DNA of 64,000 bases, taken from NCBI GenBank assembly GCA_003169845.1, contig PNAG01000017.1, positions 62,001 through 126,000 on the forward strand, in the 5' to 3' direction. Of the stretch, positions 27,367-58,602 are shown one piece after another. This DNA is from Candidatus Dormiibacterota bacterium (GTDB taxonomy: Bacteria; Chloroflexota; Dormibacteria; Dormibacterales; Dormibacteraceae). Every line of letters starts with the position of its first letter. Position 1 is the first letter of the stretch. The notes under the pieces were generated by a model. That model had not been told where the DNA came from. It searched no databases and saw only the letters and a program-made list of their open reading frames with translations. The translations under genes and the position numbers were made by a program.

Positions 27367-27854
27367 CAGTGGTGGACCTCCGACTGAGGGCTGTCGCTCG
27401 GAAACATCCGGGTGTCGTCGATCACGACCCAGCCGATCACTCCCCAGAGGAAGATCAGCCCACCGATCACGGCCAGAACGATGCGAGTGGTGGCCGAGAA
27501 CGGGATCGCCGCAAGCGACAGGAACAGGGCGCCAGAGCAGATCACGAAAGGCCAGTTGCTGTCGGGAGATAGATGGATGCCGAGCTGATGCGCCCGCGCC
27601 ACGTAGTCGACGGTGTTGTCGATGTGGACCGGGTAGTCGAGGTCGAACCGCGACACCTCGGAACGCCGCTCGGGGTCAGTCGCCTGCCAGGCCTTGAACG
27701 CGGCGGAGGCCATCTCGCTCGAAGGCCAGAGCTTGTATCCGCAGTTTCGGCACAGGTCGATGAAGCGCGCCGTGATCAGACCGCACCGGGGGCACTCCAC
27801 GGCCAGGCTGGTGTTCGACACGTCAACATAGCGAGTCTGCTTCGATGCCGCCAC
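27366..27854 (-). CDS. zinc-ribbon membrane protein, cytochrome oxidase subunit IV-like
   Basis: The 162-residue product begins with a zinc ribbon (VECPRCGLITARFIDLCRNCGYKLW, about residues 18-43), followed by a soluble stretch and two membrane helices (about 104-121 and 126-147) that end in IDDTRMFP. The two-helix end and its position before subunit III recall the small subunit IV of actinobacterial aa3 oxidases; the zinc ribbon is not a usual part. The GTG start at 27854 has a TAGAAT box 12 nt upstream. This fusion-like form may be specific to the lineage. Confidence 0.65.
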   Translation of the reverse strand: MAASKQTRYVDVSNTSLAVECPRCGLITARFIDLCRNCGYKLWPSSEMASAAFKAWQATDPERRSEVSRFDLDYPVHIDNTVDYVARAHQLGIHLSPDSNWPFVICSGALFLSLAAIPFSATTRIVLAVIGGLIFLWGVIGWVVIDDTRMFPSDSPQSEVHH

Positions 27855-27916
27855 AGTCGATTTTGGATTCTATCCGGTCGCTGGGGCGCCTCGCCGGTTG
27901 GAGTTCCGGTCATCGA

Positions 27917-27922
27917 TATACT
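27917..27922 (+). promoter_or_regulatory. -10 box for a leaderless oxidase subunit II transcript
   Basis: TATACT ends 7 nt before GTG 27930. A TAGAAT box for the opposite strand lies at 27867-27872, so the 75-bp gap between the divergent oxidase transcripts holds both promoters. Confidence 0.6.
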
Positions 27923-27929
27923 GACCGCC

Positions 27930-28778
27930 GTGCCAGCACGCGCCCGCGCGACTTTCACGGCGCTCGGCCTGATGGCCGGAGCGCTCATGCTCAGCTCGTG
28001 TGGCGGGCTCGGGGGCATTTCGCCCATCTTCCCGACCCCGGTCTCACCCAACGGGCAGGGCATCTACGACCTCTACCTGTTAATTTCGATCCCGGCGATC
28101 ATCGTGTTCATCGGGGTCGAGGCGGCGCTCCTGTGGGTCGTCCTCCGCTACCGGCGCTCGAAACAACCGGCGGGCTATGTCCCGCCGCAGATCCACGGAC
28201 ACAACGGTCTCGAGGTCGCGTGGACGATCGTACCGCTCGCGATCGTCCTGGCGATCTCCCTCGTCAGCTTCCAGGAGCTCCAGAAGGACTTCCAGCCGAT
28301 CAACAACCAGCAGATGCTCGTCGTCGTGAGCGGCCACCAGTTCGGGTGGATCTACACGTATGAAAACGGCGTCAAGGTGGACCAGGAGGGCACGCTCGCG
28401 GGCGACGTGACGCCATTCGTCGTCCCGGTCAACACGCTGATCAAGCTGCAGTTCCAGGGCACTGACGTGATCCACTCATGGTGGGTGCCGGCGATCTCCG
28501 GGAAGACGGATGCCGTCCCTGGTTACGACAACTTTTCGTGGCTGAAGATCAGCCAGCCCGGCACGTGGCGGGGAGAGTGCGCTGAGCTGTGCGGCGCAGG
28601 ACACAGCACGATGCAGATCATCGTGCAGGCGATGGACCAGGCCGACTACGACCAGTGGATGCAGACGCAGCTGGCGGCCAGCAACGCCTCGCCGTCGCCG
28701 TCGCCGTCACCGTCGCCGTCCGCTTCTCCATCGCCCTCCCCGTCCGCCTCCCCCAAGCCCTCAGCCACGCCGAGTTAG
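27930..28778 (+). CDS. ctaC: cytochrome c oxidase subunit II
   Basis: The 282-residue protein has a lipoprotein signal ending LSSC, two membrane helices (about 50-72 and 93-113) and a cupredoxin domain with the CuA site: HSWWVPAISGKTDAVPG and CAELCGAGHSTM (two Cys, His, Met and the Glu). It accepts electrons from cytochrome c or a cupredoxin and passes them to haem a. There is no fused cytochrome c domain. The last 35 residues are Ser-Pro repeats. GTG 27930 was chosen because it starts the signal peptide and is preceded by TATACT at 7 nt. Confidence 0.95.
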   Translation: MPARARATFTALGLMAGALMLSSCGGLGGISPIFPTPVSPNGQGIYDLYLLISIPAIIVFIGVEAALLWVVLRYRRSKQPAGYVPPQIHGHNGLEVAWTIVPLAIVLAISLVSFQELQKDFQPINNQQMLVVVSGHQFGWIYTYENGVKVDQEGTLAGDVTPFVVPVNTLIKLQFQGTDVIHSWWVPAISGKTDAVPGYDNFSWLKISQPGTWRGECAELCGAGHSTMQIIVQAMDQADYDQWMQTQLAASNASPSPSPSPSPSASPSPSPSASPKPSATPS

Positions 28779-53242: not shown

Positions 53243-54031
53243 TCATCGCACCCTTCGGGATTGTAGGCTCGCCAGGTCGATCTGATCTGCGCGCTGCTCT
53301 CCGCCAAACCACCGGACGAACACGGCGATCGCCACGACCGCAAGCGTCGCTTTGCCGAGGATCATCAACACGGCGCCGGCCACGGTCTGGTCGATCAGTG
53401 GCGAGAGGGATGAGATGAGACGCGGTGCGTGGGTGTAGTACTCGTAAAACGGCACGCGCGAGAAGATGAGGGCGAGGGCGACTCCGTCTTGCGGAAGCGT
53501 CGCCACCAGCATGTAGAGGAGCTTGGCCGCGGGCGACATGTTCCAGCGCGCGCGAGCTGACGTGGCTTCGAGCATTGGCCAGTACATCAGCAGGCCGGCC
53601 GCGATGAACATCACATGCTCGATCGCGTGCAGCCATCCCGAGTACAGCGTGGCGTCATACAGCGCGGGGACATGCCACACGACCATCACCAGCCCGGCGA
53701 TCACCAGCGCCGGCACCGGCTCGGTGATGGCGCGGACGCCCGGCACCCGCACAATCCTCCCCACCATCTGAGGAGACAGGCCCAGCAGCATAAGCGGTGG
53801 CGCGACGAAACCCAGGAGGACGTGCTGCAGCATGTGGACGCTGTCCAGGTAGTAGTCGCTGATCGTGTCGAGCGGTGTCTCGAGGGCGACCCATAAGGTC
53901 ACCAGCCCTAGACCGAAGTAAAGAGTGTGCTTCCGCTGTGCATCGTCCACCGAACCCGCGAGCCAGGCGTGCCCGAGGAAAAGGACCACGAGGCCGGCAT
54001 ACACAGTCGGATCCACAGGCCAGCCGATCAC
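53243..54031 (-). CDS. CtaG-type cytochrome c oxidase assembly factor
   Basis: The 262-residue protein has seven membrane helices and the caa3_CtaG pattern: DSVHMLQHVLLGFVAPPLMLLG, VPALVIAGLVMVVWHVPALYDATL, HAIEHVMFIAAGLLMYWPML and a late LPQDGVALALIF stretch. The conserved histidines (HMLQH, WHVP, HAIEH) are likely copper ligands for building the oxidase copper centres. GTG 54031 overlaps the VKOR stop (GTGA). It ends the seven-gene envelope operon that begins with lgt. Confidence 0.85.
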   Translation of the reverse strand: MIGWPVDPTVYAGLVVLFLGHAWLAGSVDDAQRKHTLYFGLGLVTLWVALETPLDTISDYYLDSVHMLQHVLLGFVAPPLMLLGLSPQMVGRIVRVPGVRAITEPVPALVIAGLVMVVWHVPALYDATLYSGWLHAIEHVMFIAAGLLMYWPMLEATSARARWNMSPAAKLLYMLVATLPQDGVALALIFSRVPFYEYYTHAPRLISSLSPLIDQTVAGAVLMILGKATLAVVAIAVFVRWFGGEQRADQIDLASLQSRRVR

Positions 54032-54456
54032 GACCTCACCCTGGTGCCGTTCCGACTCGTCAGCGCAACCAGGAAGATCACCAGCACCAGGACGTGCGCG
54101 GCGGAGCACCAGGTACAGATCGCGCCGAGCTGGACGATCTCGACATAGATGAGGAACAGCACCGTGAGCAGGCCAAGGGCAGACCACCCGAGCTGTAGCC
54201 GAGCGAGGCCCTCGCTGCGGGCGATCAGCCCCGCCGCCAAGAGTGCGCTCACCGCAAACCAGACGATCCCCGCCGCCGATGTCGGGATGGCGGACCCGCC
54301 GATTACTCCGTACCGGCTGGACAGCACCTGTTCGCAGCTGATCACCCCGTTCGCCGGGCAGACCAGGGGGATCGTCGAGTAGTGCACCACGGTCAGGTAA
54401 AGCGAGATACCCAGGCCGGCCAGGCTGGCGACCAGCGCCAGCGCTTGCAGCCTCAC
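54028..54456 (-). CDS. vitamin K epoxide reductase (VKOR) family protein
   Basis: The 142-residue protein has four membrane helices, the loop cysteine pair (LVCPANGVISCEQVLSSRYG) and the CxxC active site in AICTWCSAAH. Bacterial VKOR reoxidises a periplasmic thiol oxidase and passes electrons to quinones, so it drives disulfide formation. The GTG start abuts the stop of the DUF929 gene. The pair VKOR-DUF929 suggests that the DUF929 protein is its thioredoxin-like partner. Confidence 0.9.
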   Translation of the reverse strand: MRLQALALVASLAGLGISLYLTVVHYSTIPLVCPANGVISCEQVLSSRYGVIGGSAIPTSAAGIVWFAVSALLAAGLIARSEGLARLQLGWSALGLLTVLFLIYVEIVQLGAICTWCSAAHVLVLVIFLVALTSRNGTRVRS

Positions 54457-55302
54457 CTAGCCGAGTTTCTGTTCTATGGCCTGGATCGCGGACGAGGAGC
54501 ACACCGTCGCCGGCTGGTCGGCGGTCAGCCGGCAGATGGCGGCCGTGACGAGGTTCGCTGACCCAAGGATTGCCTTCGCCTGCGGCGAGCTCGACTGAGC
54601 CAGCGAGTCCGCGACCGCCTGCCAGCTCATCCCGCTCAGCACGTCGGGCAGGTACATGGCGCCGTTGAATGCGTACCGATTGCCAAAATCAACAAACGGT
54701 ATCGAGCCGGAGGTGTCGTACTGGTTGACGAGGGCCTGCTGAGCCGAGGTCGGAGTCTCCAGGGGGTTGCGGTTGCGGTCTGTCGTCTCGACCGAGACGA
54801 AGTCGACGTACTGACTGGTGTACGTCGCGCCGTGGAACGTGAAGGTAGGGGTGTTGGCGTAGACGTCGGTCGATGAGGAGGACGTGGTCTTCAGGCCGGA
54901 GAACGTCCCGAACCGTGACAGGGCGATGATCATCGGCCACCTCTCGGCCGCGCAGTACGGGCAGTACTCGGCTCCCAGGTAGAACACCTCGGGGTGACCG
55001 TTCGGGCCCGTCTGCGGAGTCCCCGATACGCGCTTGATCAGGTTGTTGGCGGAGCCGGTACCGACGGCATCCAGCTCCGACGCGGGGAGGCTCGTGATGC
55101 TCGAAATCACCAGCTGCGTCGCGTCCACAGTCAGCGGAGGGGGTGCGACCGGGGTCGTGTACCACCTGATGACCAGGAAGGCGACCACCAGCAGCGCGAT
55201 GCCGGCCACCACCGCCACCGGGGCGACCCAGGAGGGAGTGCGCGACACCGGCTTGCGCATCGACCGCGAGACGGGTGGCCGCTTCGCTGCGGGCCGGCTC
55301 AT
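54457..55302 (-). CDS. DUF929 thioredoxin-like membrane protein
   Basis: The 281-residue product has a basic cytoplasmic N-terminus, one membrane helix ([21 protein letters not shown], about 25-45) and an extracytoplasmic thioredoxin-like domain with the redox motif [21 protein letters not shown]. Two more cysteines lie near the C-terminus ([15 protein letters not shown]), a spacing that would allow a second disulfide. It probably oxidises exported proteins and is recharged by the VKOR protein encoded next. It overlaps its upstream neighbour by ATGA. Confidence 0.85.
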
Positions 55303-56696
55303 CCTGTCTCTCTCGTGATGGGCTGGGCCAGGATCCAGAGGCTGGTCATGGTGTACATCACCATCAGGATCAGCATGGGGTACTGGCTGAGCAATGCGCG
55401 CTGGGCCGTGCGGAAACGCTCACCCGCCCGCAGATGGGCGAGGTACACCGCAATGACGTGGCCGAGGACGATCAGCACCACCTGGGCATACCAGACCGTC
55501 GACGCCTGGGCGAGCGCAAAGCTTGGTGTGAACCCGGCCACCGCGGGCCAGAGGTGCCAGCCTTTCTGGAGCGGGTCGTTGAGCAGCGGGATGAGGCCCT
55601 GGGACTGCACGACCACGTAGCTGTAGTTGTGGGCGGCGTTGTAGACGAGGGCGATGGGCACCAGCGTCAGCGCGAAGGCGGAGACTGTCGCCTTCAAATC
55701 CACATTGCGCCTGCCGAGCCAGACGACGAGCTCCATGAAGGTGATGAACACGAGCAGAAAGGCAATGGAAAGCAATAGCAAGCCGAGGGTCTTGACGAAG
55801 AAGAATCCGAACGCGCCCATCGGCAGCCAGATCGGCTCGAGCGCAACGGTGAAGTCCTGCCACGAAGGCGTGGCGAGGATGCCGTCGAAGGCGAGGGTCG
55901 ACAGCATGAGGATCACGAAGACGACGCGGTCCCAGCCGGTCGGCGACGGCTTGAGCAGCCCAACGCCCCACGGCCGCAGGTAGACCATGCTGATCCGGCC
56001 CGATTCGTCGCGCTCAGCCTCGACCGGGCTGAAGCGGCCGACGATTCCGAAGAGGACGGTGAAGGCCTCGCAGTGTTCCAGCCACTCGTCGCGGCCGAAC
56101 AGGAACATCCCTGTGAGGGTCACGGCCGAATAGATGATCGCGAGGACCGCGACGAGCCACGGCCGGTTGGCCATGCCGGTGGTGAGCTCGAGGCAGGCGA
56201 ACGACAGGTAGGCCGCGGCCGCAGGCCAAACCCCCACATTGGGCAGCTTCCACACCGGCGCAAGGTGGACGAGCCTGTTGACGCCGTCATAGATGGCGGT
56301 CCACGGGTTGACGAGGTACCAGAGATTTCCGACGAGCCCCGAGACGATGAAGAGCCCGGCCCAGAAATAGATCCAGACGAGGTACTCGGCCGGGTTGTAC
56401 AGCGGGTTGGAGGAGCCGAAAAGGCCGGTGATGACGACGGCGAGCAGGCCCGCGATCCCGCTGACGCCGCCTACGATTCGCGGCCATGGCGTGCGCGCGA
56501 TCGACGTGAGGATGGGCACCGCACGCCGCGGGTACTGGAGCGCCTTCGCCCCCACCTGGTCGCCGGTGAAAAGGACCACGAGCACGAACGAGATGACGAC
56601 CACGCCGGCCGCCGCATATAGATAGAGAGCGAGCGAGATGGGAAGGTCATAGCGCGCTCCGAAGCCGTGGAGGTGGATTCCGAGCGCGGGGATCAT
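55299..56696 (-). CDS. multi-spanning membrane protein of unknown function
   Basis: The 465-residue protein has about 11-12 predicted membrane helices. Conserved-looking features are [20 protein letters not shown] at the start, [12 protein letters not shown] with NLWYLVNPW in the middle, and [32 protein letters not shown] before the last helices. I do not recognise the family. It overlaps the cupredoxin-like gene (ATGA) and the DUF929 gene (ATGA), so it belongs to the maturation operon. ATG 56696 lies at the first helix and is favoured by the overlap; the open frame beyond it is not coding. Confidence 0.7.
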
Positions 56697-57085
56697 GGGC
56701 TCACGACCAGGGCGCCGAGCGGGGTGCTCGTGCTCTCCCATTCGATGATGCAGTCGCACGTGTTGACGGCTTTGAAGGTGTGGCTGACCGTCTGGCCTGC
56801 CCTGGTATTGAAGGCGATGTCGTACACGTGAAGGTGAACCTCGCCATCCGTGTCGCTGGTGATGTTGATCGTCACGGTGTCGTTCTGATTGGCGGATAGG
56901 GTGCTGGGCGACAGGCAATTGCCTGGGAAAGGGTCTGTACAGTCCATCGACCTGGCACCCATGACGGTGACATTGAAGGTCAGGTTACGGCCCCCGTGAC
57001 GCTGGCCGGCCAGGATGATGACGCCGCCGACCACAACGAAAACCGCGAGCACGCCGATGGCGATGGCGAGACGAGCACGACTCAT
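56693..57085 (-). CDS. cupredoxin-like membrane-anchored protein
   Basis: The 130-residue product has one N-terminal membrane helix (ARLAIAIGVLAVFVVVGGVIIL) and a beta-sandwich with NQNDTVTINITSDTDGEVHLHVYD and a C-terminal GALVVSP strand. Two histidines (HLH) remain, but the usual Cys-x-His-x-Met copper loop is replaced by NTCDCIIEWESTSTP. It may bind copper with a different site or have lost it. The best ribosome site of the region, AAAGGAGG, lies 5 nt before ATG 57085. Confidence 0.65.
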   Translation of the reverse strand: MSRARLAIAIGVLAVFVVVGGVIILAGQRHGGRNLTFNVTVMGARSMDCTDPFPGNCLSPSTLSANQNDTVTINITSDTDGEVHLHVYDIAFNTRAGQTVSHTFKAVNTCDCIIEWESTSTPLGALVVSP

Positions 57086-57127
57086 TTTTCCTCCTTTAGA
57101 TTTGTGCGCGCGTGAGCGCGCGTGCGA

Positions 57128-57760
57128 TCAGCTAGACCTGAGGCGCACGGAGGAGGGCGGGCCGCGCTTGGCGAGCGATGCGCCCGCGACCGGCCTGAGC
57201 ACGAGATGGCGGCGGCCGTAGCCCCACAAAGGGATTGCCACCGCCACGGGTGAAACCCGAGCCGGCGGCGCAGCAATGGCAACTCGGATCTCGCTGATGG
57301 CAGACTCAAACCTGAGCAGCAGCCACTTGAACGCGAGGGCGCCGAGGGCCGCCACCGGCAGCTGGCCCACCGTGCCCAGAAGAAGAATGTGAGGAGCCGA
57401 GGCGACCGCCGCACCTGCTGCCAGCGACTCGACCGTTTCCTGCAATCCGAAGCAGGCCATCAGGATCGTGAACATCAGCGCCAGCAAGCTCACGTAGGAA
57501 GGACCGCCCGCCGGCCTGGCAGCGAGACCGCCGGCCACGAACCTGGACGCGCCGATGACCAGGAGGCTCGCCAGGAGCGCCGCGGCCCCGAAGCCAAGGC
57601 CTGTCTTGACGAGCATCGGAAAGTAGGCGTGAGCGCCGGTGCTCTGGACCGTCTGCGCGGCGGAGCCGAACTGCAGCTGATACACCAGCAGGTGGCCCAG
57701 CTGCGACAGGAGGACGCCGAATCCGGCCAGCGCCCCGCCCATCTTCAGGGAGCGGTTCAC
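57128..57760 (-). CDS. five- to six-helix membrane protein of unknown function
   Basis: The 210-residue protein starts at GTG 57760, overlapping the lgt stop (GTGA). It has membrane helices at about 8-28, 49-70, 87-105, 116-133 and 135-150, and a basic C-terminus. One conserved-looking feature is SQLGHLLVYQLQFG with a membrane histidine. I do not recognise the family. A palindrome GCGCGC-GTGA-GCGCGC (57107-57122) lies in the 42-bp gap after it and might slow or stop transcription before the cupredoxin-like gene. Confidence 0.6.
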   Translation of the reverse strand: MNRSLKMGGALAGFGVLLSQLGHLLVYQLQFGSAAQTVQSTGAHAYFPMLVKTGLGFGAAALLASLLVIGASRFVAGGLAARPAGGPSYVSLLALMFTILMACFGLQETVESLAAGAAVASAPHILLLGTVGQLPVAALGALAFKWLLLRFESAISEIRVAIAAPPARVSPVAVAIPLWGYGRRHLVLRPVAGASLAKRGPPSSVRLRSS

Positions 57761-58602
57761 GCGCGGATCATACCCTCGGGGGTCACGCCCACCTCGCGTT
57801 TGGGCCGAGTTCGAAGCCACATCACGAAAAAGATCGGGACGATGGTCAAGAGCATCGCCACCGACGTGAGCTGGGCCTGCTTCAAACCCCACAGGATGAC
57901 CGGCGTCTCATAGTCAGTCCGCCACTGGAAGAGGATCAGCTGGCTCACCGGATAGAGGACGAGGTACGTCAGCCCCAACACCCCCGAGGGCACGCCACGA
58001 CGCCGCAGGTAGAGCAGCACGGCAAGAATCAGCAGCGTGCCGATCGCTTCGTACAGGTTCGCCGGCTGGTAAGCGACGCCGAGCTGGGGAGCCATGGAGG
58101 CGGGGTTGGTGTAGCGGATCGCCCACGGCAGGTTGGACGGAGGGCCCAGGATCTCACCGTTCATCACATTGCCCAGCCGGCCGATGGGCTGCCCGACGGC
58201 GGCGAAAAGCACCCCCGCGTCGAGAAGGTCCCAGAAGCTGATGTGGTGCCGCCGCGCCATCACGATCAGAACGATCAGAGCGGCAAAGATCGCGCCGAAG
58301 AACGCCATGCCTCCTTCCCAGAAGGCAAAGATGTGCTGCGGATGGGTCAGGTAGAACCACCAGCCTGACTGGACGTCGTAGTAGAGCCGCGCCCCGATCA
58401 GCCCGAACACGATCGTCCAGAAGGCGATGTTCCCGCTCAGGTTCGACGAGATGCCCTTTCGCTCGAGGTGCCGTGTGGCCACGGCCGTGCCCACGAGAAA
58501 CGCGACGGCGTAGGCGAGCCCGTAAAAGCGGATCTGGAGGGGACCCAGGAAGAACCCGGGCGGGAATGGGTCGGTGATCACGAGCCAGGGCACGTGGTGC
58601 AA
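57757..58602 (-). CDS. lgt: prolipoprotein diacylglyceryl transferase
   Basis: The 281-residue protein has seven membrane helices and the Lgt signature GQPIGRLGNVMNGEILG, with the conserved Arg and Asn, and IRFYGLAYAVAFLVG with the essential arginine/tyrosine region. It transfers diacylglycerol to the cysteine of lipoprotein precursors, several of which are encoded in this window. TTG 58602 gives the longest form; GTG 58593 is equally possible and has TAGCCT 8 nt upstream. It is the first gene of a seven-gene operon. Confidence 0.93.
   Translation of the reverse strand: MHHVPWLVITDPFPPGFFLGPLQIRFYGLAYAVAFLVGTAVATRHLERKGISSNLSGNIAFWTIVFGLIGARLYYDVQSGWWFYLTHPQHIFAFWEGGMAFFGAIFAALIVLIVMARRHHISFWDLLDAGVLFAAVGQPIGRLGNVMNGEILGPPSNLPWAIRYTNPASMAPQLGVAYQPANLYEAIGTLLILAVLLYLRRRGVPSGVLGLTYLVLYPVSQLILFQWRTDYETPVILWGLKQAQLTSVAMLLTIVPIFFVMWLRTRPKREVGVTPEGMIRA

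Follow-up and report, generated by a model that had tools for sequence, protein, structure and literature searches.

Two adjacent genes, cup and P465, lie within a seven-gene operon at positions 53243–58602 of the window analysed here, a 64,000-nucleotide stretch of contig PNAG01000017.1 from a Candidatus Dormiibacterota bacterium. We judge the chances about even that their products work as a metal-handling pair outside the cytoplasm, with copper as the likeliest metal, within an operon that assembles copper oxidases. This reading is based on the predicted fold of cup, a charge-based topology and a conserved His/Met set in P465, the homology of P465 to Fer4_5/NapH polyferredoxins without their iron-sulphur (Fe-S) sites, and metal genes in its neighbourhoods. 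On the best reading, P465 would feed cuproenzyme assembly together with cup, acting like the CopC-CopD proteins without being a member of that family, which makes P465 a promising candidate for a new component of the cellular copper supply.

Conserved residues of P465, fold of cup and neighbouring metal genes

P465 (465 aa; 55299–56696, on the minus strand like the rest of the operon) is a membrane protein whose loop charge counts fit ten helices with both ends outside. Conservation was assessed in the 68 of 72 P465 hits that extended over 330 residues or more, and revealed a short list of candidate ligands, namely H356 (68/68), H413 (67/68), H421 (65/68) and M445 (66/68), together with an outer H10 in 60 of the 68 sequences; most members conserve E170 as well. 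An AxA signal-cleavage motif precedes H10 in Proteobacteria, an arrangement that recalls the histidine-brace copper proteins and is only a lead, the window copy having just nine residues before H10.

The original prediction had singled out the 465-residue protein and a 210-residue one, P210, as unknown proteins, and this holds for both: neither had a Pfam match at E<=1, and cup gave sub-threshold matches only. Scans of 18 P465 alignment members and further members of the family likewise produced no credible Pfam or NCBIfam match, and a PDB sequence search with the P465 profile returned nothing usable. P465 or its Fe-S relatives were detected in 90 of 400 genomes of the phylum, and tblastn found P465 in 63 plasmid records, including haloarchaea, actinobacteria and proteobacteria (Rhizobium, Sulfitobacter, Mycolicibacterium and others). 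No description of the family was found in the open literature searched, which does not in itself show its absence from print. P465 represents a widespread family without a name that appears to be new. Two P465 genes stand in tandem in one genome (G002, locus L052, 6184–9035), downstream of two open reading frames (ORFs), one of 193 aa and rich in Met, the other DoxX-like as judged by eye, and a third copy lies elsewhere in that genome. In locus L003 (10001–11727) P465 cannot be read through in one frame, probably because of an assembly error.

The 130-aa product of cup (56693–57085) is a membrane-anchored protein with a predicted cupredoxin fold. Its AlphaFold2 model (pLDDT 85.4, pTM 0.69) matches 77 PDB chains at E<=0.001, including CuA domains and nitrous oxide reductase, and compares with CupA at a TMt of 0.70 and with Brucella FtrB (8vuk) at 0.77. 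Profile searches pointed to two-domain copper oxidases (2.5e-5) and nitrosocyanin (8.4e-4), and a CopC profile gave no match to cup at E<=1. An HxHxYD motif (H84, H86, Y88, D89) is invariant. We infer that cup is more likely a metal carrier or receiver than an electron carrier. A cup match in locus L014 (9037–9975) covers its second half only, again probably an assembly error.

Gene neighbourhoods were examined as well. For a Pfam scan with no preselected families, 140 of 185 near proteins (within two genes of P465) and 140 of 317 far proteins were drawn at random; 17 far and 1 near rows, mostly ORFs that were very long or cut by the locus end, were left out by hand, and 139 and 123 proteins were scanned. 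CopC was the commonest family among the 139 neighbours (five cases) and was not among the 25 families listed for the 123 distal genes. Counted over 55 non-redundant loci, CopC occurred in 8 of 289 near and 0 of 329 far proteins, and cytochrome c domains in 7/289 and 1/329, respectively.

Composition of the operon

Seven genes joined mostly by 4-bp overlaps had been proposed to act stepwise as one envelope maturation system. The layout was confirmed: lgt, P210, cup, P465, DUF929, VKOR and CtaG are seven minus-strand ORFs, and four of their six junctions (lgt/P210, cup/P465, P465/DUF929 and VKOR/CtaG) are overlaps of 4 bp each, while DUF929 and VKOR abut exactly and a 42-nt gap with AGGAGG just 5' of cup separates it from P210. 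G+C content at third codon positions is high in all seven frames (0.80–0.89), and a scan for promoters and terminators did no better than on shuffled sequences.

The names of the known parts also stand. Prolipoprotein diacylglyceryl transferase (lgt, 281 aa; 57757–58602) matches Pfam Lgt (PF01790, 1.2e-55) and scores above the TIGR00544 cut-off. The VKOR-family disulfide-generating membrane protein (142 aa; 54028–54456) has the family profile (PF07884, 1e-22) and, in alignment, the loop Cys pair and a CxxC (CTWC). Its partner DUF929 (281 aa; 54457–55302; PF06053, 5.9e-34) is thioredoxin-like with a CPYC motif; the family was assigned to the thioredoxin clan in 2010, according to PMC3091736. 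The cytochrome oxidase assembly factor CtaG (53243–54031) passes the Caa3_CtaG profile (PF09678, 2e-44) and reaches 82 bits with the stricter equivalog TIGR02737, below its cut-off of 279. Its start is a GTG at 54031; the profile scans read the frame from a GTC at 54034, one codon upstream of this likely start, with no effect on the result. The original prediction took oxidase subunit II (COX2) for a lipoprotein bearing a CuA site. Its ORF elsewhere in the window (27573–28778, plus strand) has an LSSC lipobox and the CuA motif CAELCGAGHSTM, consistent with that view; the genome contains three COX2 matches.

Gene order was compared in 48 loci. P465 has cup as its immediate upstream neighbour in 31 of them, CtaG at most 1.1 kb downstream in 27, and P210 upstream in 24; DUF929 follows in 12 loci, VKOR follows in 10, and lgt, linked in only 3, is local to a few genomes. 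Such recurrence means that the operon order is not due to chance. Adjacent cup-P465 pairs were found in Dormibacterota, other Chloroflexota, Proteobacteria and Actinobacteria, and cup directly precedes P465 in 18 of 46 non-redundant loci of His-type members, as we call the P465 sequences apart from the Fe-S relatives. In one locus (L062, 5070–5813) a 247-aa membrane ORF with no Pfam match sits between P465 and CtaG, at the site taken by DUF929-VKOR elsewhere.

Co-occurrence was counted in one set of 61 genomes, all of them kin, with P465 in 43, CtaG in 56, DUF929 in 27, VKOR in 24 and P210 in 22. No association was found in this set between P465 and VKOR (both in 18 genomes, P465 only in 25, VKOR only in 6; Fisher p 0.58), VKOR being present in 18/43 genomes with P465 and 6/18 without, nor between P465 and DUF929 (p 1.0). 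VKOR and DUF929 were accordingly rejected as constant partners of P465, and the single stepwise system of the original prediction is not supported. DUF929 occurs in 23 of the 24 VKOR genomes, as a neighbour in 20, and the two are also paired in genomes without P465. All 43 genomes with P465 have CtaG (p 0.0014), a value weakened by the presence of CtaG in 56 of 61 genomes anyway and by the incompleteness of four of the five genomes without it. The occurrence of P465 in genomes without VKOR or CtaG, named in advance as evidence against a joint role, is therefore seen for VKOR (25 genomes) and, within the class, not for CtaG. P465 is also present in 21 of the 22 genomes that have P210.

From linkage and co-occurrence together, the operon is a mosaic in which P210-cup-P465 form a metal module and DUF929-VKOR a disulfide module, with CtaG and lgt joined to them. 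P210 (57128–57760) is a 210-aa hydrophobic membrane protein, with no NCBIfam match either, in which H23, H44, Y46, Q107-E108 and E111 are invariant (23/23 sequences). It ends in RGPP (window 57128–57160), with R and both prolines in 23/23 and G in 21/23 sequences; DUF2946 proteins near copper genes presumably carry a similar tail. P210 was found only in Dormibacteria genomes (families f1 and f3) and at a single locus assigned to family f17, and tblastn found none in plasmids.

A mosaic could arise without any common pathway, by dense packing of envelope housekeeping genes that share transcription only. This is the alternative that survives best, although we consider it doubtful. It agrees with the rare linkage of lgt (3/48) and DUF929 (12/48) and with the distribution of VKOR and DUF929, which is independent of P465. 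It does not account for the cup-P465 and P210-P465 linkages, which persist over large distances, nor for the mutually unrelated thiol-redox proteins that recur next to P465 (CcdA in family f11, SCO1 in locus L147).

Relationship of P465 to Fe-S membrane proteins

Profile alignment with hhalign related P465 end to end to polyferredoxin membrane proteins of the Fer4_5/NapH type (E 3.7e-39 over 400 columns). The most distant matches of the P465 profile carry Fer4_5 4Fe-4S motifs (PF12801, best 6.9e-14) and match NapH/MauN TIGR02163 weakly (best 1.1e-11, below cut-off); P465 itself had no Fer4_5 match in the Pfam scans. Thus P465 has the homologous membrane domain and not the 4Fe-4S ligands: the first CxxxCP reads NPW, the second WLEHCEAF, and the ferredoxin insert with its cysteines is absent. 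A PDB sequence search with the Fe-S relatives found short ferredoxin stretches only, and no model of CcoG, which we take to belong to the same Fer4_5 superfamily, gave a match.

A wider set was divided into 18 Fe-S relatives and 87 others, with two sequences (L143_8 and L178_1) moved by hand from the Fe-S bin to the His-type. The signature HHHHM at positions 10/356/413/421/445 is present in 75 of the 87 non-Fe-S members; one of the 87 departs from it as HACQM. Among the Fe-S relatives H413 is found in 0/18 and H421 in 1/18. Eight His-type members have an insert with 6–7 cysteines at the position of the ferredoxin insert. In the tree the Fe-S and P465 groups are separated with 100/100 support, and the members with the Cys insert occupy two separate positions. 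With the tree unrooted, loss of the Fe-S clusters in the P465 lineage, rather than their gain by the relatives, is a likely direction of change. In four loci (L170, L171, L172 and L180) Fe-S relatives cluster with a PCYCGC protein (PF13798), a COX2-like cupredoxin and a Fer4_5 membrane protein, and some of these clusters add a COX2-cytochrome c protein, forming a module without a described role.

This ancestry also suits a different function, in which P465 would be a heme electron-transfer protein whose transmembrane His hold heme b instead of Fe-S clusters and which reduces Cu(II)/Fe(III), or cup, on the outside. Besides the homology to NapH/Fer4_5 electron-transfer proteins, the eight members that retain a Cys-rich insert and the frequent cytochrome c neighbours speak for it, and CcoG, a cupric reductase with two Fe-S clusters according to PMC7558416, sets a precedent for Fe-S membrane proteins in the copper supply of oxidases. 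We nevertheless regard it as unlikely. The window protein lacks both the Fe-S-motif cysteines and the insert, so that electrons would have no obvious entry, and M445 is as invariant as the His and suits Cu(I). The eight-residue spacing of H413 and H421 is, we assume, not usual for a diheme protein.

Genomic contexts of P465 and the candidate metals

A role for the unknown proteins in copper-site or thiol maturation had been proposed. For P465 the contexts uphold the copper and oxidase-assembly part, with CopC-CopD, SCO1, CcdA, CtaG, particulate methane monooxygenase (pMMO)-type and HMA P-ATPase genes as neighbours; they do not uphold a thiol step. One locus (L058) reads P210-orf-cup-CopC/CopD-orf-P465, another (L147) cup-P465-SCO1-DUF3105, and CopC-CopD-cytochrome c occur with P465 in L149, L161 and L162. 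The order cup-P465-CcdA was seen in L155, L159 and L161, the CcdA-type match being tested in the first two and assigned by eye in the third. pMMO-type genes lie near P465 in two mycobacteria, and PCu(A)C in Sulfitobacter. The loci L083 (with CtaG) and L088 and the haloarchaeal loci with an HMA P-ATPase, described below, also count among these contexts.

Metal families of any kind were found in 21/243 near versus 3/277 far proteins of the 46 His-type loci. Several observations weigh against a copper pair. The metal families in the near and far counts were picked after the neighbourhoods had been viewed, which makes the p-values descriptive. In its predicted model cup has the fold of a type-1 (blue) cupredoxin and not its ligand loop: there is no Cys-His-Met loop, and the C-terminal loop has no conserved Cys or Met. 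A profile search found no cup in haloarchaea, in the plasmid loci of Rhodobacterales/Rhizobiaceae or in Dormibacteria families f2–f3. The P465 model had no Foldseek match to solved folds at E<=0.001, and the best VIA Z, at 7.1, was unconvincing. No metal gene lies near P465 in Variovorax, Neorhizobium, Sagittula, Fuscovulum and one Haladaptatus. Finally, the haloarchaeal neighbours, an HMA P-ATPase along with an Fe2+-transport protein (Iron_transport, PF10634) and a Dyp-peroxidase-like DUF7405 protein, are as suggestive of iron as of copper.

P465 could then be the permease, and cup the FtrB/EfeO counterpart, of an uptake pair for ferrous iron or mixed metals like EfeUOB/FtrABCD. Those systems also have a cupredoxin-fold partner, the cup model matches FtrB, and iron-related genes recur beside P465 not only in haloarchaea but also in a locus ordered P465-CtaG-Fur-VIT1-NicO-ArsP_1 (L083), while ZnuA and its ATPase adjoin it in L088. 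Nonetheless, P465 had no FTR1-type permease match in the Pfam scans, CopC is the commonest neighbour family, and the conserved buried residues are His/Met, a set that suits Cu(I), though E170 is conserved in most members. Taken together, this makes an iron pair quite improbable.

P465 is also found in unrelated contexts, as had been foreseen among the grounds for doubt: catabolic clusters in Variovorax, Rhizobiales and Rhodobacterales in which genes for copper or thiol functions are not apparent. That P465 hydrolyses or transports catabolic substrates at the membrane is nevertheless very hard to credit, given that metal contexts are common elsewhere, that the label 'fenitrothion hydrolase', probably attached to similar actinobacterial proteins, was on no listed match, and that the papers found do not describe P465.

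Comparison with known systems and proposed mode of action

Like the metal-handling pair favoured here, CopC-CopD (PcoC-PcoD, YcnJ) combines an outer beta-sandwich metal-binding protein with a multi-helix membrane protein having essential His. Homology of P465 to CopD was rejected, there being no CopD match (PF05425) at E<=1 and an hhalign E of 0.082 over 32 columns with CopC-CopD; in some loci, moreover, the two systems are encoded beside each other, not one in place of the other. PMC13344008 describes YcnJ, a CopC-CopD protein, as supporting respiration under copper limitation, so that a pair of this type can feed respiratory oxidases; the same paper ties CtaG to caa3 oxidase through an unknown step. 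The assembly factors Caa3_CtaG, SCO1 and CcdA are gene neighbours of P465 in several lineages, and homology of P465 to CtaG itself was rejected (hhalign E 0.56 over 22 columns). With the Fer4_5 polyferredoxins (NapH/MauN, NosR) P465 shares the membrane domain, differing in the loss of both CxxxCP motifs and the insert and in having H413, H421 and M445. P465 is a variation on known kinds: it descends from the polyferredoxin membrane domain, minus its clusters, and in its likely action resembles CopC-CopD.

If so, the anchored cup would use its HxHxYD site to bind copper on the outer side of the membrane before handing it to P465, where the metal would be taken up at the outer N-terminal His and might move along H356-H413/M445-H421 into or across the membrane, then supplying CuA/CuB assembly with CtaG. 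P210, with its two invariant His, may be an accessory membrane part. DUF929 and VKOR would form disulfides in a step of their own and so keep SCO-type carriers and cysteine ligands in their proper state; the lipoprotein COX2 would be anchored by Lgt.

A bolder proposal, which we offer tentatively and put well short of an even chance, is that P465 is the founder of a new class of membrane proteins that transport or donate copper in bacteria and haloarchaea. It would descend from an Fe-S polyferredoxin of the NapH/NosR kind that exchanged its clusters for a transmembrane His/Met ladder and, with cup, it would provide a second CopC-CopD-like route to oxidases and particulate monooxygenases. For most phyla, the way in which these enzymes receive copper outside the cytoplasm has been described only in part. 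The short list of near-invariant residues and the existence of cultured hosts (Haloferax, Mycolicibacterium, Rhizobium) make the copper idea testable, and the P465 family may record a redox protein losing its Fe-S clusters and gaining candidate intramembrane metal ligands.

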